From IMG/VR virus record IMGVR_UViG_3300032238_001497, positions 1 through 25,260 of that record: a stretch of DNA of 25,260 nt. One strand, 5' to 3'. Position 1 is the first letter of the stretch. Each line of letters begins with the position of its first letter. Origin of the DNA: a virus. A model generated the notes under the pieces. That model had not been told where the DNA came from, made no database searches, and saw nothing but the letters and a program-made list of their open reading frames with translations. Positions 794 through 25,260 of the stretch are shown one piece after another. The translations under genes and the position numbers were made by a program.

Positions 794-3475
794 TTATTTG
801 ATTCCATGTGTTGCTTTTGCATGTCTAGTTCCTTTAGAATGTTGTGCAGACATTGCAGGAACTTTGGAATGCGCTTTTGTTGTAGATGCACTATCACCGG
901 ATTTTTTACTATTTTTAGATGTATTGAGAACAACTACTTTTTGTTTTGGTGGTGGAGGTGGTGCAGATGATTTTGGTTTTGAATTACCAAGTTTTGCATT
1001 TGTTGTTTTGGGTTTATTCAAGTTATCAGCAACAACTATACCGCTTCCACCAGGACGTAAATTTGCCCATCCTTTAGCCTGAAGAATTCTAAGAACTCCA
1101 GATAATCCTTTAAAAGCAGCTTCTCCAACATTTCCATTTCTTAATCCTTTTCTACTTTCTTTGAAGTATTGAGTTGCAGTTTTATTTGAATCATAAACAT
1201 CATTAGTTCTTGCTTTCCCATCTTTTCCAACTTTAAAACTAAATTGACCAAGTGCAAGATTTGCGAGTTTATCATTCATAAACTTATTATAAGTCTCCTG
1301 ACCCAAACCAGCCGCACCAACTCCAGACTGTCCATGTTTTCTATAATATTCTACAGCTGGTTGTGTATACCTTTTTAATGCGTCATTATTAATTCTAAAT
1401 CCAGCACCAAGAGGTCCTAATAATCCCTTTGCTGCATATTGCAAACCTGTAATTTTTGCTCCTAGGTTTTTAATTCTTCCTCCAGATAGTTTTTCCGCAA
1501 GATTTTCAACACCTTCACTTTTTAAACCCTTTAAGAAATCAGGAATTGCCCCTTTATTTCTTATATCTTGATATAATTTTTTAATATTCCCACCGATGCC
1601 GGTGTCTCTTTTTGGATCATATATTGAAGCAATATCTTTATCACTTTCTCCCAATCTTTTTGTTACTGCAGCATATTCTTTCTTATAATCATTTTTTTCA
1701 AATTTTTCTGCCCATTTTTCAATTCCCCACCTGCTATCTTGAGTTTTTTGAAGTCTGTCTTTTATACCACCAGCAGCATTTCTTAAAGATTTTAATCCAC
1801 GATTTACAATATTGAAAGAAGCAGGACCTGAACCTCTTCCAAGATTTTGCAATTGATCTTGTCCATATTTTAATAGTCCACCCATTCCTCCTTTTCTGGC
1901 TGATAACGCTGCTTGATTGATACCGCCCATCATTCCAGAAATATTTGGTCCAGAAAAGCTTGGAGATTTTCCATTTTTCATGGTCGATATTAAATTATTA
2001 ATGGACCCTATTAAACTTTTATTTCCAGATAAAGATTGTCCTCTAGCATAGTTTTCTAATGATCTTACAAGATTATCTCTATTGTTTAATAAAGGATCTA
2101 CATATCTTTTTTCTACATCACCAATAAAACCACCACCAGCTGCATGAGGAATTCCAGAAAGAATTTTTGGTCTATTTGTTCCACCACCTGCAGAATTTAA
2201 TCTTTCTAAATATGAAACTCCATATTTATTGACTGCTCCGCGAGACATGACGAACTCGCCATCACTAAGCATTGCAGGAATTTTATCAACTCCTCTTTCT
2301 CCACTTACAAATCCACCTGAAGCATATGCAGAAGTTTTTCCAGATTTTAAATACGAAATTTGCTCATCAATCTCAGCACCTTTTCCTTGAAGTTTTTCAA
2401 AAAGATTTAAATTTGCTTTCTGCTGTTCAAGTTGCTTAAGTTTATCTTCTGTACTTCCAGGTGCTCCTTTCGTTTCTCTTTCTTGCTCATCTACTGTACC
2501 AGGAGCCATTGCTGGAATCAATGCTCCAGCAGCAAATAATCCTATTCCTGCTGCTGCTACTTTATTTCTAGCTATAAATCTCAATAATGATGGAATTGCA
2601 AATCTAGTAAGTCGAATTAATCCTCTAGCTACAATTCCGGTAATTGAACGAACAAATGCGCCAAAAGATGTTCCAAATAATAAGTATGATCCAAGAAGAG
2701 CTGGCCACCAATCTTTAACAAATCGAATAATACTTTGGATTTTTCCTTGATTTTTAGGATCCCCAAACCATCCAACCAATTTATACATGACTCTTCCTAA
2801 GAAGGTCATCACAAAGAAATGGATAATTTTATCCCAGATTGATTTAACCGGTGCTAAAATCCCAGTAATAATTTTTTGTATTTTTTCAAAAGGTTTTTTC
2901 TCTAATTGAGATTCTTTTTCTCTTCTTTTATTATACTCTGAGTTTTTTCTTTCTAAATCTTGCTCTTTACTTGTTAATTTAAATTGATCTTTAAGTATAT
3001 TTGCAATAGACTCTACAGATTTTCTAATTGCTGATATATTATTTTCTAATTCATCTCCAAGTTGAGGTCCAATTTTATCAATTTTATCCTTAGATTTTGC
3101 TGATGGTAATAATTTTTGTGGAGATACTACAGAAACAGGTGTTGCAATAAAATATCTTTCCTTTGTAATTCTTAAAGGACTGGTTGCCTTTACCTTATTT
3201 GCATTAATTTTTTTGGTATTGACTTTAAATCTTCCTTTTCCAGTGTTTCTCTTAATTCTTAATAATTCTTGTCTTAATAACTCAACTTCTTCGTGAGGTA
3301 TTTTTTCTTTTCCAATCGAACTATATTTTATAGTCGCTTCTTTTAAAAGAGTAAAATAGGTATCATAATCCAAGTCAAAAACATCTTCTAATCCAAGAAG
3401 TCTCAGAATTCTTTCGTCAATCTTTTCTGAGACGTTTCCTGAACGCGAATTTTGACTTGGATTACCAACTACCAT
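794..3475 (-). CDS. Candidate tail tape-measure protein (893 aa)
   Basis: A long basic protein with alternating coiled-coil and hydrophobic parts. Residues 140-195 are heptad-like and highly charged. Residues 200-325 carry several hydrophobic segments (about 215-233, 258-285, 305-325). At residues 386-418 there is GGFVSGERGVDKIPAML, then DGEFVMSRGAVNKYG, a Gly-rich GVDKIPAML..GEFVM pattern that recurs in phage tape-measure proteins. Residues 430-893 are Gly/Lys-rich and end in a Pro run and a Ser/Thr/Lys/His-rich tail. It is longer than T4 gp29 (590 aa), with no convincing alignment to it by eye. It lies directly after gp26 and the 53-aa ORF, the usual place for a tape measure after tail-assembly chaperones. 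The role is inferred from motif and position. The start is ATG, 1 nt after the upstream stop. Confidence 0.7.
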   Translation of the reverse strand: MVVGNPSQNSRSGNVSEKIDERILRLLGLEDVFDLDYDTYFTLLKEATIKYSSIGKEKIPHEEVELLRQELLRIKRNTGKGRFKVNTKKINANKVKATSPLRITKERYFIATPVSVVSPQKLLPSAKSKDKIDKIGPQLGDELENNISAIRKSVESIANILKDQFKLTSKEQDLERKNSEYNKRREKESQLEKKPFEKIQKIITGILAPVKSIWDKIIHFFVMTFLGRVMYKLVGWFGDPKNQGKIQSIIRFVKDWWPALLGSYLLFGTSFGAFVRSITGIVARGLIRLTRFAIPSLLRFIARNKVAAAGIGLFAAGALIPAMAPGTVDEQERETKGAPGSTEDKLKQLEQQKANLNLFEKLQGKGAEIDEQISYLKSGKTSAYASGGFVSGERGVDKIPAMLSDGEFVMSRGAVNKYGVSYLERLNSAGGGTNRPKILSGIPHAAGGGFIGDVEKRYVDPLLNNRDNLVRSLENYARGQSLSGNKSLIGSINNLISTMKNGKSPSFSGPNISGMMGGINQAALSARKGGMGGLLKYGQDQLQNLGRGSGPASFNIVNRGLKSLRNAAGGIKDRLQKTQDSRWGIEKWAEKFEKNDYKKEYAAVTKRLGESDKDIASIYDPKRDTGIGGNIKKLYQDIRNKGAIPDFLKGLKSEGVENLAEKLSGGRIKNLGAKITGLQYAAKGLLGPLGAGFRINNDALKRYTQPAVEYYRKHGQSGVGAAGLGQETYNKFMNDKLANLALGQFSFKVGKDGKARTNDVYDSNKTATQYFKESRKGLRNGNVGEAAFKGLSGVLRILQAKGWANLRPGGSGIVVADNLNKPKTTNAKLGNSKPKSSAPPPPPKQKVVVLNTSKNSKKSGDSASTTKAHSKVPAMSAQHSKGTRHAKATHGIK

Positions 3476-3476
3476 T

Positions 3477-3638
3477 TTATTCTAGTTGCTGTTTAGACTT
3501 TTCTTCTTCTAGGTGATTTTTAAGCATAGCAACATAGATATCCCTCTCCCAAGGTATCATATTTTCAATCTCCCATAAAGAGTATTTATGATACTGCATT
3601 AGAGAAAAATTGAGAGTATAATAGTTCTCTAGGTCCAT
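3477..3638 (-). CDS. 53-aa ORF between gp26 and the tape-measure candidate; possible -1 frameshift extension of gp26
   Basis: The ORF codes for 53 aa and begins MDLENYYTLNFSLMQYHKYS. It contains WEIENMIPWERDIYVAML and ends in a charged tail (EEEKSKQQLE). It has no signal peptide or membrane segment. The ...Y..W...E...MPWE pattern is typical of small proteins beside gp26 in T4-like phages, and it resembles the C-terminal half of frameshifted tail-assembly chaperones. It starts 11 nt after the gp26 stop and ends 1 nt before the next start. An AGGA lies upstream, but the ATG sits inside a perfect palindrome that could block ribosome access. The reading frame continues upstream of the ATG to the end of gp26, where a slippery heptamer could join the two. 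It could be made alone, as a fusion, or both. Confidence 0.75.
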   Translation of the reverse strand: MDLENYYTLNFSLMQYHKYSLWEIENMIPWERDIYVAMLKNHLEEEKSKQQLE

Positions 3639-3662
3639 ATGGACCAATCCTATCCGAAAAAA
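3632..3662 (-). promoter_or_regulatory. Putative programmed -1 frameshift signal: slippery heptamer plus hairpin
   Basis: On the minus strand the gp26 codons TTT TTC are preceded by T, giving the heptamer T TTT TTC (3662-3656), which fits X XXY YYZ exactly in the gp26 frame. Ten nt downstream is the perfect palindrome GGTCCATATGGACC (3645-3632), a 5-bp stem with an ATAT loop. The gp26 stop comes two codons after the heptamer. A -1 slip would read CGG ATA GGA TTG GTC CAT and then the 53-aa ORF, giving a fusion of about 297 aa. The hairpin is short and its spacer is slightly long, so efficiency cannot be judged. Confidence 0.6.
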
Positions 3663-4369
3663 CTAGACAGACCCTCCAGAACTACTTCACTTTCAACATT
3701 TGTGACTGGATTTGAAACCTTAACAGTATGTGAGAGTTTAGGCATTGTTTCAAAGAATTTTTCAATTTCTTTGAACTGAGAAGAATTCATTTGATCTAAG
3801 AAATCTGAAATTTCTTTTTTTGTTACATCTCCAGAAGCCCACACTTCATCTTCTGTGTAAATTTTATCTACACAATCTGCAATAAGATCAAAAGACTGTT
3901 CAATATTAGAATTCTTCGACAGATCAAAATTATTTTTAATGAATTGATCTAATGATGGATATTTCATATCCATCGAAATTGAGTTGTCTACCTTAATACT
4001 CTTTTTATGATCTTCATTTTTTTGGACTTTAATATCATCAATATTAATTTTGACTAAAACATAAGTTTCTTCATCATCTGGGCAAATAATATTGACTTCT
4101 ACTTCTTCTCCAACAGACTTTCCTCGAATGTTTAAGAAGAGATATTCAATATCAAATGTAGGAAGTGCTTCTACTTTGATACCTTTTGTTTGAATACAAC
4201 TTTTAATTACTGTTTTAATTGCGGTTGTAATTTGCTTCATGTCTTCGCTTTCTAATGCTAAGACTAAAAGTTTTTCTTCACGAACTAAAAATGGTCTATA
4301 TTGAATTGTTTCTCCCGTAGATGGTAATTCCAACTCATATGTCGGCGTAGAAATTTTTGGTAAAGGCAT
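3650..4369 (-). CDS. 26: Baseplate hub protein gp26 (T4_baseplate family)
   Basis: A 239-aa protein that begins MPLPKISTPTYELELPSTGE and continues IQYRPFLVREEKLLVLALES, the signature of cyanophage gp26 (T4 gp26 is about 208 aa). The N-terminal third is the conserved core. The C-terminal part is acidic and helical, with QMNSSQFKEIEKFFETMPKL and then SFFG at the end. T4 gp26 is needed for baseplate hub assembly and is not clearly a permanent virion part, so a chaperone role is plausible. A good ribosome site (TAGGAG) lies 4 nt before the ATG. The last codons form a slippery heptamer that may give a longer frameshifted product with the following ORF. Confidence 0.88.
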   Translation of the reverse strand: MPLPKISTPTYELELPSTGETIQYRPFLVREEKLLVLALESEDMKQITTAIKTVIKSCIQTKGIKVEALPTFDIEYLFLNIRGKSVGEEVEVNIICPDDEETYVLVKINIDDIKVQKNEDHKKSIKVDNSISMDMKYPSLDQFIKNNFDLSKNSNIEQSFDLIADCVDKIYTEDEVWASGDVTKKEISDFLDQMNSSQFKEIEKFFETMPKLSHTVKVSNPVTNVESEVVLEGLSSFFG

Positions 4370-4486: not shown

Positions 4487-4735
4487 ATGAAGCGAGCATT
4501 TTCTTCTCTTGTCGTCCTTTACGGTCTAGGTCTTTCAACTTTGTTTTTCTGTGGTCTAGTCGCAGATATGGGTGCTCTTGATGCAGCATTTCGCAATGGA
4601 AGTGAGCGAGCAGAACTCCGCCATCGAATTAATGTCTTTGCTGATGGTACTTGGTTTATGCTTGCAAACCTAATTACAATCGCAGGTGCTTACGGAACTT
4701 ATTCAAGCGTCAAGAAGAAAAAAGAAGAATCTTGA
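4487..4735 (+). CDS. Small two-helix membrane protein in a single-gene cassette
   Basis: An 82-aa protein with a hydrophobic helix at about residues 6-27 (SSLVVLYGLGLSTLFFCGLV), a charged middle (FRNGSERAELRHRINVF), a second hydrophobic stretch at 56-72 (FMLANLITIAGAYGTYS) and a Lys-rich end (KKKKEES). I do not recognise a named family; similar small proteins are common in cyanophages. It stands alone on the plus strand between minus-strand tail genes, with its own extended -10 promoter and its own terminator overlapping the stop codon. Its first 120 bases are about 44% G+C, against about 23% in a sampled 60-nt line of gp26. No Shine-Dalgarno is visible in the short leader. The layout is that of a phage moron gene. 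Function unknown, perhaps acting on the host membrane. Confidence 0.72.
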   Translation: MKRAFSSLVVLYGLGLSTLFFCGLVADMGALDAAFRNGSERAELRHRINVFADGTWFMLANLITIAGAYGTYSSVKKKKEES

Positions 4736-4756
4736 GGAGGGAAACCTCCTTTTTTT
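4735..4756 (+). terminator. Intrinsic terminator after the small membrane protein
   Basis: AGGAGG (4735-4740), tetraloop GAAA, CCTCCT (4745-4750), then a T run to 4756. The stem begins at the last base of the TGA stop codon. The T run also holds the end of the convergent gp54-like gene. Confidence 0.85.
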
Positions 4757-5603
4757 ATGCAACACCAAGGAAGTTTGCGGTATTAGTTGCATCTTGAGAT
4801 CTCTGTCCAAAATTATTATAATACTCGTTTGTAACCACAGTACTTTTTGTAAGTCCGTTATATCCAACTGTTCCGCCAGGATTATTTGTCTGATTACTTG
4901 TATTTAATTCTGGATTTCCTGTAGCGTTTGGTTGTGGAGTTGTTTGAGAAATACTTTTAGAATTTTGAATAAAATATCTAGAATATGAAAAAGAAACAGT
5001 AACCTTTAATAAAGAAGCTGTTTCGTAAGATACAGGCATTGATGTAATATTGGTAGGAAAAGCCTGAATAAATCGATAAGTTAAAGGACTTGCTGCAGGA
5101 AGTTGACCAACTGCTCCAAGATCTTTTTCAAATTTTGTAATGTATAAATCACTTGTTTGATAATCATCTGGCCAATTAACTCTATAAGAATAGTAATTAT
5201 TTGTTATGTTATTTTCAAGATCACTTGAAACATTTTCATTTACAATATACCTTAACCATGTTTCAAAAAATTTAATCTGGTAGTAAGCACTATCAACATA
5301 AAAAGTAAAATCTGCTTTATCGTCATATAATCTTCTATATCCGTGCCTTTCAGTTACTCCGGTGTGATCATTGGTAATTTCATGAGTAGCAATACTTGAT
5401 CCAGGAAGACTTGCCTCTGAACAAGATAATATAAGTCTATTTGTATCTAAATTTACACCATTTAAAGAAAGCGCCTTCCCCATATTAGGTGGTGACGCTA
5501 CATATACTTCAAAGTTATTTGTTAACGCAGGCCTCATAATCATTGAAGCCTTGAGTTCAGTTATTGTTCTTGCTCTTGCTGGTGTAGAACCGTTGCTAGC
5601 CAT
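4755..5603 (-). CDS. 54: gp54-like baseplate tail tube initiator (gp19 fold)
   Basis: A 282-aa protein. Residues 20-120 follow the T4 gp19-family pattern: RPALTNNFEVYVASPP, then CSEASLPGSSIATHEIT, then ERHGYRRLYDDKADFTFYVD and KFFETWLRYI. The C-terminal 60 residues are Asn/Thr/Gln-rich and probably flexible. At 282 aa it is closer to T4 gp54 (320 aa) than to the major tube protein gp19 (about 160-210 aa), and the nearby gp26, gp48 and gp53 support gp54. gp54 sits on the baseplate hub and starts tube polymerisation. A divergent tube protein is the alternative. The ATG at 5603 is followed by MASNGSTPARARTITELKAS. It converges with the small membrane-protein gene and diverges from gp4. Confidence 0.72.
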   Translation of the reverse strand: MASNGSTPARARTITELKASMIMRPALTNNFEVYVASPPNMGKALSLNGVNLDTNRLILSCSEASLPGSSIATHEITNDHTGVTERHGYRRLYDDKADFTFYVDSAYYQIKFFETWLRYIVNENVSSDLENNITNNYYSYRVNWPDDYQTSDLYITKFEKDLGAVGQLPAASPLTYRFIQAFPTNITSMPVSYETASLLKVTVSFSYSRYFIQNSKSISQTTPQPNATGNPELNTSNQTNNPGGTVGYNGLTKSTVVTNEYYNNFGQRSQDATNTANFLGVA

Positions 5604-19469: not shown

Positions 19470-21851
19470 TTATGCAACAAATGTACCTGTTGAGGTGCCT
19501 ATTTTTTCTACTGTATAAAAACTACCGGCAAGTGGCGTTGCAGTACCAGCACTTTGAGTCAACTGAAGTCTCCAGTTAGCAGCAGCATTAGTGACTACAA
19601 ATATTTCAAATTGTGCAAAATGGTTAACACCAGTTGTTAATGATGCTGTTGCAGCATGAGCCATTGATGCAGTGGCTTGGCCGGCAGAGTTTGAAATTAC
19701 AAAAGTCTGTGTTCCGTTTGCAATACCAGTAACTGGAGAATATGCAAGAATTGCTTCAAATACAGTAGGAGCACTAGAGAATGTATGTGTCCAGGTTGCA
19801 GTACCTGCTGTGGTTTTTAAATAATATGCAAAGCAACTAATTTTATAAGCAGAAGATGCTTCTAAACTTAATGAACTTGGTGTTGTAAAGAAATCTGCAA
19901 TTGCGGCACCAATTGCAGCACCATTAGATGTTCTTCTAAAGGTATAGTAAGGTGGAATATATGCTCTACCAGAAGTAGTGTTTGGAGTCTGATATAAGAA
20001 AGAACCATCATATTCAACTGCACCTGCTTCGGGAGTTCCTAAGTTAGTACCAGAAGTAAATTTAAGTGGTGCTGTACCCGCAGTTGCAGTACCTGCAGCA
20101 GGTTGAAGAGTTTTATTAGTTAAAGTTAAAGTATTACTAGATGTTGCAATAGTAACACCTTCAATAGTTACTGCACCCGCAGCACTTCTAGCAAGAGTAG
20201 TATCAGATGCGTTACCAAGTTCAATACTACCTACACCTAAAGCAGTAGTAGTATCAGATAATAGTTTAGTTAATGCAATACTACCAGCAAGCATACCATT
20301 TGTAACTTTAGTAGCACCAATAGTAGTTGCTCCAGTATTATCAATGGTAATATCACCAGACATTGCTACAGCAGCACCAACGTTTGATGCATTACCAACA
20401 ATAATGTTAGCACTGTTTAAAGTCAATTTACCTGCAGCAATTGATCCAGCAAGCATACCATTTGTAACTGTTCCACTATCACTAGTACTTACAATAGTAA
20501 CATTAGCATCAGGTAATGTATAAGTTCTTGCAACAGTAGGACCATTGAAAGTTAACTGTTGAGATGCTATAGGTAATGTGGTATTTTGATCAGGAACAGT
20601 TATGGTTCTTGTGTTTCCAGCAGTAATACCAGATAACTGGAACTGCATCTTTCTTGTATTATCACCATCATCTACAAAAACTGTTGTGCTATCTACAAAA
20701 GTACTAAAACCAGTTTTAAAGAATGTATTACCGGTAAAAGTAGCAACACCAGAAATATTGTTACTTCCAGCTAAAGTAACAAAACCATTAGATCCGAAAG
20801 TAGAGATTCCAAGTGCGCTAAAATTATTATTAACTCTTTCATCATTACAATTAAAGAATCCGTTACCGAATGTAAATCCAGCACCAACAGTTAAGTAACT
20901 TCCATTTAAAACTGATGCAGTATTACCAATCGAAACTCCATAATTAGATACCCATGCATCAGTGCCCATTCCAGAGTAATTATTTTGTTTAATCCACATC
21001 CATTGCTTATATGTGGATGGATTGCTATTAATTCCAATTTGAAGTGGAAGAGTAAGTATTGGAGTTCCTACTGTACTTGCAACTGAAATACCACCGTGAT
21101 TTGCAGTATCGTCTGTAGAAACATCATTATTTAAAGCGTCTGTAGTATAACCAACTACAATATCTTTATCTTTTACTTGTAATTGTGCTGCATTTAATAT
21201 TGCTGTTGTACCACCAATACTTAAAGAACCTGAAACATAAAGGTTATTTCCAACATTAAAATCTCCAGCAGCAGCAGTTATCCTAGCACTAGGAACTATT
21301 CCTGTTGATAAACTAGAAGCATTTAAGTCGGTAAGATATGTTCCAGCCCCAACAAACCCACCACCAGTAGTTGTTACAACACCAGTAACATTTATACCTT
21401 GAGCAAAGGTTGATATTCCAGATACGTATAGATTTGGTACTTGAGTATTTCCTAAGGTAGAAATACCAGAAGCAAATAATGTCCCGTTTATAGTAGTATT
21501 TGTAGCCGTTACAATACCAGAGATATTAAGATTATTAACTTGAGTATGAGCAAGAGTGCTCATACCAGTTACACTTATAGAAGATGATTGAACAGAAGTA
21601 AATGTACTTACTCCAGATACATTTACACCTCCACTCACACTAACATCATTAAAAGTTGTAATTCCGGAGAATATTTTATTTGATAATGTTTGAGTTACAG
21701 CAACACCTACAAGTTCATAACCAGAAACTTTATTTCCGTCATGAACTACTGCGATCTTTTTATCAGTATCTACAATAATTTCTCCCTGGGCTCCCAAGAA
21801 AACTGCCGCTTGTCCGGATGTTCCCCTTCTAAACTGAACGCCTTTAGTCAT
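19470..21851 (-). CDS. Tail fibre protein (793 aa)
   Basis: Residues 1-40 are the fibre adaptor (VQFRRGTSGQAAVFLGAQGE, then DTDKKIAVVHDG), followed by TQTLSNKIFSGITTF and a shaft of short VSG(V/I)STF-like repeats to about residue 150. The middle has ITVPDQNTTLPIASQQLTFN and two copies of VTNGMLAGSIA, each followed by a TKL or GKL segment. The C-terminal 180 residues (from PPYYTFRRTSNGAA on) form a compact, Thr/Ala-rich domain likely to be the tip. Fibre shafts of this kind are usually trimeric. A perfect late octamer lies 28 nt upstream. It is probably a receptor-binding or accessory fibre; the receptor is unknown. Confidence 0.82.
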   Translation of the reverse strand: MTKGVQFRRGTSGQAAVFLGAQGEIIVDTDKKIAVVHDGNKVSGYELVGVAVTQTLSNKIFSGITTFNDVSVSGGVNVSGVSTFTSVQSSSISVTGMSTLAHTQVNNLNISGIVTATNTTINGTLFASGISTLGNTQVPNLYVSGISTFAQGINVTGVVTTTGGGFVGAGTYLTDLNASSLSTGIVPSARITAAAGDFNVGNNLYVSGSLSIGGTTAILNAAQLQVKDKDIVVGYTTDALNNDVSTDDTANHGGISVASTVGTPILTLPLQIGINSNPSTYKQWMWIKQNNYSGMGTDAWVSNYGVSIGNTASVLNGSYLTVGAGFTFGNGFFNCNDERVNNNFSALGISTFGSNGFVTLAGSNNISGVATFTGNTFFKTGFSTFVDSTTVFVDDGDNTRKMQFQLSGITAGNTRTITVPDQNTTLPIASQQLTFNGPTVARTYTLPDANVTIVSTSDSGTVTNGMLAGSIAAGKLTLNSANIIVGNASNVGAAVAMSGDITIDNTGATTIGATKVTNGMLAGSIALTKLLSDTTTALGVGSIELGNASDTTLARSAAGAVTIEGVTIATSSNTLTLTNKTLQPAAGTATAGTAPLKFTSGTNLGTPEAGAVEYDGSFLYQTPNTTSGRAYIPPYYTFRRTSNGAAIGAAIADFFTTPSSLSLEASSAYKISCFAYYLKTTAGTATWTHTFSSAPTVFEAILAYSPVTGIANGTQTFVISNSAGQATASMAHAATASLTTGVNHFAQFEIFVVTNAAANWRLQLTQSAGTATPLAGSFYTVEKIGTSTGTFVA

Positions 21852-21916: not shown

Positions 21917-24256
21917 TCAATTTCCAGCCATTATAATCCAAAGAGAACCATTTGATACAAGAGTTGCCCATTTTCCTGCAGTTCCTGAAGCTAGAATTGC
22001 AGTTCCTGTAGTTCCGGTTAAACTACTTACATTAGATGATGCAGAGTTTACAGCATTTGTTGAAACAGTTTTAATCATCAACTCTCTTCCAACCCAAGTT
22101 GATGCTGAAGGAAGGGTAAGTGTAATTGTTCCAGCACGACTACAAATAATCCAACTCCAATTATCCGCTACAGTAGCAGTTGCTGCAGTAACTGTAACCG
22201 GAGCATTTCTTCCAATTGAACCATTTACATAAAGACCTGCTGTAGGAACATCGGTATTAATACCAACCGATCCATCACTTGTACCAACAATCCAAGAAGT
22301 TGTTGTAGTTCCATCATTACCAGAAATTCTAAGTTGCCTGCTTCCTGTAGTATTTACAGGATCAATATTAGAACCAATTATAACATTTCCAGATCCAGCA
22401 GTAAGATTTGCAGCAGCATTATATCCAACTGCAATATTATTATTTCCCGTAGAATATTGCAAAGCTTTGGATCCAAAAGCAGAATTATTAATTCCCGATA
22501 CGTTTGAATATAATGCATTAGATCCAAATGCAGAATTTTCATTTGCATTAACATTATTTTGTAGGGCGTCATCACCAAACGCTGAATTTAAATTACCATT
22601 AATATTTGAAGATAAAGTAAGCGCACCAAAAGCATTATTACCATATCCTGTAGTATCAACTGATAGGGATAAATATCCTACAGCATTATTATTATTAGAA
22701 TCAGCATCATGAAGTGCGCTATATCCTATCGCAACATTATCATATCCAGTATTATTTGAATATAGTGCTCGATATCCAATTGCTACATTCTCATATCCAC
22801 CAGTATTCAAATATAATGGTTGATCTCCAATTGCTACATTCTCATATCCATTAGTATTTGAATTAATAGCCTGATATCCCAATGCAACATTATTATTTCC
22901 AGAAACATTACCAACAGTAATACTATTAATTAAAGCATCACCATTTACATTTAATCTATATTTTCCTGGATTTGTAAGTCCTATACCAACAGAACCAATA
23001 CCAGTAATAACAAATGTAGTTGTTCCGCTCCCAACTTGAAATACTGATATTGGATTAGCAGTAGCAATGCCAACTCTACCAGAAATATAAGCACCACCAG
23101 TTACTTGAAGTCTTTGTAGTGCAGTTCCTGTTGATGTTCCAGAACCAATTAATACTGGTCCGTTAGTAAATGTAGAGACTCCGGAAACATTAAATGTTTG
23201 GGCATTAAGATTTGTAGTTGTGGTATATCCTAAAGTACTTACACCAGAAACATTTATAGACTGAGCATTAAGATTTGTAGTTGTGGTATATCCTAAGGTA
23301 CTTACACCAGATGAATTTACATTGGAAACTATAACATTTCCTAAAGTACTTAATCCAGAAACATTTAAAGATTGTGTATTAAGATTAGTTGTTGTGGTAT
23401 ATCCTAATGTACTTATACCAGATGAATTTATATTGGAAACTATGATGTTTCCTATTGTAGTTATTCCAGAAATATTAATATTTTGTGTATCAAGATTAGT
23501 TGCTGTAATATAAGATACAGTACTTACACCAGAAACATTTAGAGACTGAGTATTAAGATTTGTTGTTGTGGTATATCCTAAGGTACTTATACCAGATGAA
23601 TTTACATTGGAAACTATAATGTTTCCTAAAGTACTATTTCCTAAAGTACTTACACCAGAAACATTTAGAGACTGAGTATTAAGATTTGTAGTTGTGGTAT
23701 ATCCTAAAGTACTTGCACCAGAAACATTTATAGACTGAGCATTAAGATTTGTAGTTGTGGTATATCCTAAGGTACTTACACCAGATGAATTTACATTGGA
23801 AACTATAATATTTCCTAAAGTACTTACACCTAGAACATTGAGTGTTTGGGAATTAAGGTTAGTTGTTGTGGTATATCCTAAAGTACTTATACCAGAAACA
23901 CTTAATGTCTGAGCATTAAGATTTGTTGTTGCAGTATATCCTAAGGTACTTACGCCAGAAACACTTAATGTCTGAGAATTAAGATTTGTAGTTGTAGTAT
24001 ATCCTAAGGTACTTACGCCAGAAATATACAAATTTCCAGAATTATAAACATTTACAAAAGTCGTAATTCCAGAGAAAGTTTTATTTGATAATGTTTGAGT
24101 TACTGCAGTACCTACTAATTCATATCCACCAACTTTGCTTCCATCATGAACTATTGCGATCTTTTTATCAGTATCTACAATAATTTCTCCAACAAATCCA
24201 GTGAAGACCAAAGATTCTGCTGTACTACCTCTCCTAAACTGGAATGCTTGAGCCAT
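21917..24256 (-). CDS. Tail fibre protein with tandem shaft repeats and beta-roll repeats (779 aa)
   Basis: Residues 1-70 are the fibre adaptor (QFRRGSTAESLVFTGFVGE, DTDKKIAIVHDG, then TQTLSNKTFSGITTF), nearly the same as in the 793-aa fibre. Residues 79-357 are 14 tandem units of 21 or 16 residues (SGVSTLGYTTTTNLNAQ type and SGVSTLGNIIVSNVNS type). Residues about 450-629 carry N.A.G..AL...N repeats (for example NVAIGYRALYSNNTGYDN), which resemble the beta-roll of trimeric adhesin heads. The last 120 residues (from VTVTAATATVADNWSW) are a Thr/Ser-rich tip. It is probably a trimeric host-recognition fibre. A perfect late octamer is 28 nt upstream. Confidence 0.85.
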   Translation of the reverse strand: MAQAFQFRRGSTAESLVFTGFVGEIIVDTDKKIAIVHDGSKVGGYELVGTAVTQTLSNKTFSGITTFVNVYNSGNLYISGVSTLGYTTTTNLNSQTLSVSGVSTLGYTATTNLNAQTLSVSGISTLGYTTTTNLNSQTLNVLGVSTLGNIIVSNVNSSGVSTLGYTTTTNLNAQSINVSGASTLGYTTTTNLNTQSLNVSGVSTLGNSTLGNIIVSNVNSSGISTLGYTTTTNLNTQSLNVSGVSTVSYITATNLDTQNINISGITTIGNIIVSNINSSGISTLGYTTTTNLNTQSLNVSGLSTLGNVIVSNVNSSGVSTLGYTTTTNLNAQSINVSGVSTLGYTTTTNLNAQTFNVSGVSTFTNGPVLIGSGTSTGTALQRLQVTGGAYISGRVGIATANPISVFQVGSGTTTFVITGIGSVGIGLTNPGKYRLNVNGDALINSITVGNVSGNNNVALGYQAINSNTNGYENVAIGDQPLYLNTGGYENVAIGYRALYSNNTGYDNVAIGYSALHDADSNNNNAVGYLSLSVDTTGYGNNAFGALTLSSNINGNLNSAFGDDALQNNVNANENSAFGSNALYSNVSGINNSAFGSKALQYSTGNNNIAVGYNAAANLTAGSGNVIIGSNIDPVNTTGSRQLRISGNDGTTTTSWIVGTSDGSVGINTDVPTAGLYVNGSIGRNAPVTVTAATATVADNWSWIICSRAGTITLTLPSASTWVGRELMIKTVSTNAVNSASSNVSSLTGTTGTAILASGTAGKWATLVSNGSLWIIMAGN
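22370..22900 (-). repeat. Beta-roll repeats within the 779-aa fibre gene
   Basis: About ten imperfect units of the type N.A.G..AL.....G, roughly 14-22 residues each. The hydrophobic/Gly spacing is regular while the loops differ, unlike the near-identical shaft repeats, so this part is older or under different selection. Confidence 0.65.
23186..24022 (-). repeat. Tandem shaft repeats, 63-bp and 48-bp unit types
   Basis: Fourteen units: eleven of 63 bp (21 aa) and three of 48 bp (16 aa), all starting at the SG(V/I)STLG-type motif. Within one of the 63-bp-long units (23622-23651) a 15-bp stretch, tttcctaaagtact(a/t), is duplicated in tandem, so that unit is really a 16-aa type plus 5 aa. Confidence 0.85.
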
Positions 24257-24284: not shown

Positions 24285-24292
24285 TATTTATA
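24285..24292 (-). promoter_or_regulatory. Late promoter TATAAATA for the 779-aa fibre
   Basis: An exact TATAAATA on the minus strand, 28 nt before the ATG at 24256. Its TAA (24290-24288) is the stop codon of the upstream repetitive structural gene. Confidence 0.75.
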
Positions 24293-25260
24293 TTATTTGA
24301 ACGAATGTTCCGCCTGGAATAAATGGTGGAATATATGGATTTGTACTATCAATATCTGCACCAAAGATAGTTGTGATTCCAGATGCAATATATGTTGATC
24401 TTGTATAACTTTCTTTTGCTTTTCCGAGGATGTTAAGAAGTACAATATTCTCTGGTGGATTTGCCCCAAAGACATTTGCAGATCCTGCAATAGCAGATAG
24501 TCTTCCAACACCAACAATAGCATGTCTAATCTTAATGTTAGAAACAGTTCCAGTGATTGAAACAGATCCTGATCCTCTATAAGTAAAGACATTAAAGTGT
24601 CTGGTATTTGCAGATCCAGAAATAGTTCCGAGAGCAATATTCTCTGGCGGATTTGCTTCAAGTTTATATACAGAGCGACCAGAAATAGTGATATTTCCAA
24701 TACCAACATATCTCTTAGTTCTCTTTTCAATCTTAGTACCAGAGATCGTGATCTGTACTGAGTTCTCTGGTGGGTTAGGATCAAACTTATATGATGCAGA
24801 ACCAGAAACATTAATGGTTCCAGATGCTGTATATTTACGTGGAGCAATAATACGAACAGAACCAGAAACTCTTGCAGTTCCGATACCAATGTATTTCTTA
24901 GTTCTCTTCTCAACCTTGGTTCCAGAAATGGTTCCAAGAAGAATATTTTCTGGTGGATTTGCTTCCAGTTTATATGAAGAACGACCAGAAATAGTGATAT
25001 TTCCAATACCAACATATCTGTGTGGATATCTGGTCTTAGCAGATCCAGAAACATTAATAGTTCCAGATCCATTATATTGATAAGTATTCTTAAGACGAGC
25101 AGAACCAGAAACTCTTGCAGTTCCGATACCAATGTATTTCTTAGTTCTCTTCTCAACCTTGGTTCCAGAAATGGTTCCAAGAAGAATATTTTCTGGTGGA
25201 TTTGCACCAAAGGCAATTGAAGATCCAGAGATTGCAAATAGAGTTCCAATACCAACATAT
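24288..25260 (-). CDS. Repetitive virion structural protein (partial, start outside window)
   Basis: The frame is open from the window edge to TAA 24290-24288, giving the last 323 residues; no ATG, GTG or TTG lies in this frame, so the start is further upstream. The sequence is built of beta-type repeats: KRTKKYIGIGTARVSGSARL, ANPPENILLGTISGTKVEKR and RYVGIGNITISGRS, ending in STNPYIPPFIPGGTFVQII. GIG and ISG turns every 20-30 residues suggest a beta-solenoid or fibre shaft. A leucine-rich open frame on the same strand (24293-25258) is a shadow of this one. It precedes the 779-aa fibre and is likely another tail or fibre part. Confidence 0.78.
   Translation of the reverse strand, partial: YVGIGTLFAISGSSIAFGANPPENILLGTISGTKVEKRTKKYIGIGTARVSGSARLKNTYQYNGSGTINVSGSAKTRYPHRYVGIGNITISGRSSYKLEANPPENILLGTISGTKVEKRTKKYIGIGTARVSGSVRIIAPRKYTASGTINVSGSASYKFDPNPPENSVQITISGTKIEKRTKRYVGIGNITISGRSVYKLEANPPENIALGTISGSANTRHFNVFTYRGSGSVSITGTVSNIKIRHAIVGVGRLSAIAGSANVFGANPPENIVLLNILGKAKESYTRSTYIASGITTIFGADIDSTNPYIPPFIPGGTFVQII
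24857..24962 (-). repeat. 106-bp perfect direct repeat, copy 1
   Basis: Identical base for base to 25100-25205; the offset is 243 bp, which is 81 codons. Both copies are in the same frame of the repetitive structural gene. Confidence 0.9.
25100..25205 (-). repeat. 106-bp perfect direct repeat, copy 2
   Basis: Second copy of the repeat at 24857-24962. No base differs within the 106 bp, while the surrounding parts of the repeat unit do differ. Confidence 0.9.

Follow-up and report, generated by a model that had tools for sequence, protein, structure and literature searches.

The -1 signal of E. coli dnaX consists of a Shine-Dalgarno-like element about 10 nt upstream, a slippery heptamer and a hairpin downstream, and the slip heptamer of phage lambda is GGGAAAG. 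Frameshifting in lambda G/GT and related tail-assembly chaperone (TAC) genes was described by Xu, Hendrix & Duda 2004 (as cited in PMC5009743), and the 2016 review that cites their work refers to the G-T shift as conserved "except T4" (PMC5009743). For the T4-like phages, Vladimirov, Gautam & Davidson 2022 (Virology 566:9-15) is cited in PMC10885494 for phages that have a short gene and a longer fused gene, with no frameshifting, and in PMC12846349 for slippery sequences of the poly-T kind in TAC-N genes of T4-like phages. The latter paper also presents, for phage Adele (Vandenendeviridae/Andersonviridae), a TAC frameshift with a conserved GTTTTT and a -1 frame that is open in all relatives.

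The window, by which we mean the whole 25,260-nt stretch of viral DNA analyzed here, contains a gene 26 homolog (gp26) followed by a 53-aa ORF (ORF2). Our main reading, to which we assign a probability of about 0.9, is that the two probably constitute, in this ocean phage as in hundreds of related ones, a single tail-assembly-chaperone gene read in two ways through a -1 slip on T TTT TTC. A programmed -1 frameshift at this junction had been proposed in an earlier note on this DNA, and the conservation of the site, the junctions free of start codons and a coding signature in the -1 frame all argue for it. The 3' end of gp26 reads AGT TTT TTC GGA TAG, with the heptamer in frame and the -1 frame open into ORF2 as the note had described (Table 1). 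A single codon (GGA) separates the heptamer from the gp26 stop, which lies 4-6 nt downstream of the heptamer, and a -1-frame TAG is located directly 5' of it. Any shift is thus confined to this interval, and the room for a -1 shift leading to a fusion is about a dozen bases, heptamer included. The -1 frame translates as V, a stop, FFRIGLVHMDLEN and onward to QLE and a second stop, and it is open from the heptamer via RIGLVHMDLENYYTLNFSLMQYHKYSLWEIENMIPWERDIYVAMLKNHLEEEKSKQQLE to the ORF2 stop at 3479-3477 on the minus strand. The predicted fusion is 238+59 = 297 aa long, as the note had estimated, and its predicted junction peptide is SFFRIGLVHMDLEN, while that of S-PM2 is predicted to contain LEGLQSFFRISMFYNNLENYYR. 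Of the window's 16 coding ORFs, gp26 alone was found to contain an X XXY YYZ site in its last 170 nt.

Table 1. Coordinates of the proposed recoding signal and of the surrounding genes in the window.
Feature	Position	Strand	Remarks
Gene 26 (gp26), TAC-N / G-like short product	3650..4369	-	239 aa, zero frame
Shine-Dalgarno-like GGAGGG, proposed stimulator	3672..3677	-	inside gp26 codons, 9 nt upstream of heptamer
Slippery heptamer T TTT TTC	3662-3656	-	zero frame, X XXY YYZ phase
gp26 stop TAG, bypassed in proposed fusion	3652-3650	-	
Hairpin GGTCC-ATAT-GGACC, proposed frameshift stimulator	3645-3632	-	starts 10 nt after heptamer
ATG usually annotated in GenBank as start of separate gp51	3638-3636	-	
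-1-frame segment RIGLVHMDLEN...QLE + stop, C-terminal part of proposed fusion (TAC-NC / GT-like)	3477..3656	-	
893-aa tape-measure candidate	794..3475	-	begins 1 nt past ORF2 stop
Tail-tube family protein, upstream of gp26	4755..5603	-	PHROG_45 tail tube 5e-35; Pfam PF23849 4e-15

A comparison of this junction across relatives, along the lines suggested in the note, revealed conservation of both the heptamer and the open -1 frame. In a close set of 80 IMG/VR relatives with 77-84% identity, TTTTTTC is located 10 nt before the gp26 stop and followed by an open -1 frame in every case (80/80). In a wider set of 226 distinct junctions, collected in two profile scans and extending down to about 25% gp26 identity, 224 contain an in-frame TTTTTT[C/T/A] with the -1 frame open. 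The heptamer is found in phages ranging from cyanophages to those of Vibrio, Pseudomonas, Stenotrophomonas and Acidovorax, and named examples that have the signal are S-PM2, P-SSM2, Bellamy, S-PRM1 and BUCT-ZZ01, as well as Pseudomonas Astolliot, Stenotrophomonas Ps15, Acidovorax ACP17 and Vibrio V05. Furthermore, a run of at least six T is present at the equivalent place in HTVC008M, Cr30, phiM7 and ME01. The two exceptions are CC31, a T4-type phage in which both domains are encoded by a separate gene 51, and Vibrio phage K476. In K476 (locus L090, 1390-1430), the gp26 relative lacks the T6 heptamer and the -1 ORF begins at a stop-start overlap, TAATGATG; possibly, this lineage swapped frameshifting for coupled initiation. 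At two other loci (L194 and L209), gp26 continues beyond the slip site for a few codons more than in almost every other relative, with the -1 frame still kept.

The codons at the slip site point to selection on the heptamer itself. The first Phe codon is TTT at all 218 loci tallied, whereas TTC makes up 29% of the Phe codons elsewhere in gp26, and the pair TTT TTC occupies the slip site at 195 of the 218 loci as compared to 16 of 217 Phe-Phe pairs elsewhere in the gene; these loci were taken where a six-T run had been found, only two junctions being without such a run, and the counts come from related sequences and are not independent trials. The preceding codon ends in T in 218/218, although the residue it encodes varies (Ser, Asn, Asp, Ala, Thr, Gly).

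In GenBank records, gp51 is usually annotated as a separate gene that starts at an ATG in the -1 frame. According to this interpretation, ORF2 would be a small gene of its own, started at position 3638 through translational coupling to gp26, and the -1 phase and the T-run would be incidental. An ATG is indeed present in 96 of the 163 distinct junction peptides, and in the window an AGGA lies 9 nt upstream of it, which could start ORF2 independently where the ATG exists. However, the segment from the heptamer to the conserved core contains no ATG in the other 67 junctions, 40 of the 163 have neither ATG, GTG nor TTG there, and a close relative of the window phage (L060) has lost the ATG. ORF2 is thus found in a conserved -1 frame rather than in an unrelated one, and a quarter of its junctions are start-free, which is contrary to the strong separate start that the note had named as evidence against a fusion.

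The strongest evidence against a separate ORF2 gene is the coding signature upstream of the ATG. In the 35 junctions whose first ATG does not precede the annotated gp51 start, the mean entropies over the three codons after the gp26 stop are 0.75, 0.28 and 1.27 bits at the first, second and third bases of the -1 frame, and one of these codons encodes Leu in 35/35, with an entropy of 0 bits at its second base and 1.67 at its third. This stretch evolves as -1-frame codons. Initiation of ORF2 at the ATG would leave it untranslated, which argues against a separate gene. The slip-site codons are moreover fixed beyond the need of the amino acids, and T4 encodes a fused form of the N- and C-terminal parts. 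We therefore consider a separate gp51 gene highly improbable and favor the hypothesis that ORF2 is translated as part of a fusion, not from a start of its own.

We also considered that both could be made, a frameshift fusion and a free ORF2 peptide from the ATG in the lineages that keep it. In many cyanophages, the ATG sits at one of two fixed codons (57 junctions each), and in that group access to it could be tuned by the hairpin that follows the heptamer. On the other hand, the ATG has been gained and lost while the heptamer and the frame have persisted, and in the group with gp26 scores of 265-300 the hairpin is about equally strong without the ATG (mean z -2.47) and with it (mean z -2.36). 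A dual output of this kind thus seems unlikely to us.

Two further elements flank the heptamer. The first is the Shine-Dalgarno-like GGAGGG, at which the Glu codon is GAG in 52 of 76 lineages, as compared to 292 of 1571 Glu codons elsewhere (19%). Pairing with the anti-Shine-Dalgarno sequence exceeds the synonymous null here (mean z -1.39), whereas control segments range from -0.61 to +0.12. The second is the perfect 14-nt palindrome that the note had placed 10 nt after the heptamer, GGTCCATATGGACC, with a 5-bp stem, a 4-nt loop and a folding energy of -8.3 kcal/mol. When the 45 nt after the heptamer were compared to synonymous resampling of the -1-frame codons, an excess of folding was observed just after the heptamer, with a mean z of -1.42 over 89 sequence clusters (lineages) as compared to -0.78 to +0.14 in segments clear of the signal, and a mean z of -2.0 over all 222 loci.

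In the group of 68 sequences to which the window belongs, all five stem pairs change on both sides, with 26 double-change cells as compared to 12.0+-2.8 in shuffles (0/500), and the covariation signal is abolished if the partner is slid. The hairpin is built from different sequences in different lineages: the stem is GGTCC/GGACC in the window phage, 10 bp long in the P-SSM2 group, 13-14 bp in S-PM2, 9 bp at locus L111 and 8 bp at locus L218. The P-SSM2-type group adds little to the covariation, since its 10-bp stem hardly varies and double changes are few. In distant relatives the hairpin is weak (mean z about -0.5 at 48 loci without ATG and with gp26 scores below 265), and we therefore regard it as an aid in this clade rather than a requirement of the family.

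It may be argued that the hairpin has another role, in mRNA stability, start-site masking or as a DNA element, and that the heptamer and the Shine-Dalgarno-like element alone drive frameshifting. The distant relatives that retain the heptamer with a weak hairpin, or none, are consistent with such a role, which is however harder to reconcile with a hairpin that occupies the stimulator position and has been re-formed from different sequences across lineages, and with a folding excess that declines away from the heptamer. We find this alternative possible but doubtful. As for masking of the ORF2 ATG in particular, the hairpin is weaker overall at start-free loci (mean z -0.51 vs. -2.43), but we did not adopt this explanation because the difference vanishes within the intermediate cyanophage-like loci. 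The hairpin and the Shine-Dalgarno-like element are both under selection, as they would be in a dnaX-type signal, and the hairpin is strong in the cyanophage relatives and weak in the distant ones. We are inclined to believe, with some reservation, that the marine T4-like phages have the full three-part signal, that the heptamer and its phase were already fixed in a common ancestor of many T4-like lineages and have not changed since, with a hairpin rebuilt repeatedly from different sequences, and that the T4 lineage later swapped recoding for genes 26 and 51.

The relationship to T4 is seen in the domain matches. The gp26 protein matches Pfam PF12322 T4_baseplate (8e-75) and positions 5-232 of the 282 in PHROG_150 (6e-80), while the matches of ORF2 are to PHROG_634 ("baseplate hub assembly catalyst", 8e-25) and to positions 241-280 of PHROG_150. 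T4 gp51 matches PHROG_150 over 13-280/282 (2.6e-84) and also covers PHROG_634. Since gp26 covers the N-terminal part of PHROG_150, ORF2 the C-terminal part and T4 gp51 both, the fusion would be the cyanophage counterpart of T4 gp51 and gp26 alone that of T4 gp26. In hhalign, where the E-values refer to single comparisons, the gp26 profile aligned with T4 gp26 (7e-18), CC31 gp51 (1e-6) and Aeromonas gp51 (2.5e-6). The profile comparison of ORF2 with chaperone C termini, also suggested in the note, gave matches to the C terminus of T4-type gp51 (Aeromonas 8e-10, T4 9e-5), and no match to the ORF2 domain was found in T4 gp26. Compared directly with T4 gp51, the gp26 profile yielded only a short match that is probably out-of-register, and the claim of an N-terminal domain in T4 gp51 itself therefore rests on PHROG_150. 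Judging from these profiles, T4 gp51 has a gp26-type domain in its N-terminal part and the ORF2 domain at its C terminus.

The idea that gp26 is a tail-assembly chaperone gains support from this homology to T4 gp26 and gp51 and from the cited literature, where it had already been put forward (Vladimirov et al., 2022, as cited). The gp26 profile had no match among the sequences of solved structures. A search of PDB with the predicted gp26 fold (pLDDT 88) gave no significant match, and the HK97 chaperone (gp13, 2ob9) in fourth place (E 0.79, probability 0.30) is only suggestive of a similar fold. No NCBIfam match was obtained for gp26, ORF2 or the 893-aa gene.

The gene order in the window is tail-tube family protein, gp26, ORF2 and a large candidate tape measure, which is equal to that of lambda-type tails (tube, chaperone, tape measure). 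The note had taken the junction as support for the 893-aa gene as the tape measure, which holds for its position; the matches to PHROG tail-length tape measure families are weak (best 2e-4). In HTVC008M and Cr30, an annotated tape measure is also located downstream, with one extra ORF between, and a BLASTP comparison of the 893-aa gene with these two genes gave no match. From its position and the weak family matches, the 893-aa gene is likely the tape measure. An 82-aa membrane-like ORF (4487-4735, plus strand), with no family match better than 0.13, is located between gp26 and the tail-tube gene. Elsewhere on the minus strand, two large proteins (21917-24256 and 19470-21851) have a similar N terminus, and the 779-aa one contains numerous repeats, nearly identical to one another, of the type GYTTTTNLNAQ(T/S)LNVSGVSTL and is probably tail fibre- or adhesin-like. 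One ORF (24288-25259, minus strand) is open-ended, running off the window, and contains tandem repeats around NPPENILLGTISGTKVEKRTKKYIGIGTARVSG.

We propose that most ribosomes would stop at the gp26 TAG and yield a short chaperone of 239 aa, and that a minority would slip by -1 on T TTT TTC, helped by the upstream GGAGGG and the downstream hairpin, to yield the 297-aa fusion. The additional C-terminal domain of the fusion would be the one at the end of T4 gp51, and both forms, short and long, would serve like lambda gpG/gpGT in coating the tape measure protein and recruiting tail tube protein. What the sequence comparison shows is selection on the heptamer, a rigid -1 phase, translation upstream of the ATG, the hairpin and the equivalence of the domains to those of T4 gp51, and we infer from there the frameshift efficiency, the stimulatory roles and the chaperone function, the last with the help of the literature cited above.

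If the main reading is correct, several hundred cyanophage genomes are in need of re-annotation, as their records give ORF2 as a gp51 of its own, call it hypothetical or omit it, and a joined CDS that includes ribosomal slippage would describe it better. ORF2 is present and unannotated in the records of S-PRM1, S-CAM1, ACG-2014b, ACG-2014d, ACG-2014i and ACP17, and in other phage records it is a separate "gp51" or a hypothetical protein. Furthermore, the recurring hairpins offer a natural series for determining what stimulates -1 slippage in cyanobacterial ribosomes.

Compared to known systems, the signal in the window phage resembles that of E. coli dnaX in its Shine-Dalgarno-like element, heptamer and downstream hairpin, but the gene is another one and the hairpin is weaker. 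The heptamer is unlike that of lambda G/GT, and the likeness to that system is one of arrangement, with no apparent sequence similarity. The Adele TAC follows the same logic, including a downstream ORF mis-annotated as separate, but the account of it in PMC12846349, in the part available, describes neither a hairpin nor a Shine-Dalgarno-like element. The T4-like chaperones gp26 and gp51 of Vladimirov et al. (2022), as cited, are seemingly the same genes, with a T4 gp51 that carries both domains like our fusion. The idea of a frameshifted T4-like chaperone thus appears correct but substantially anticipated by their study, which is represented here by the papers that cite it; the literature searched yielded no cyanophage-specific report of this frameshift. 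To that work, as known second-hand, we add how widespread the pattern is among marine phages, the junctions that lack any start codon, the -1-frame coding pattern that precedes the ATG and a signal made up of three parts. In T4 and its close kin, the short and long forms are two separate genes, whereas the window phage has one gene and a -1 frame, and these phages thereby show, for a phage that had long counted as the one without the conserved G-T shift (PMC5009743), a recoded gene that matches T4's two.
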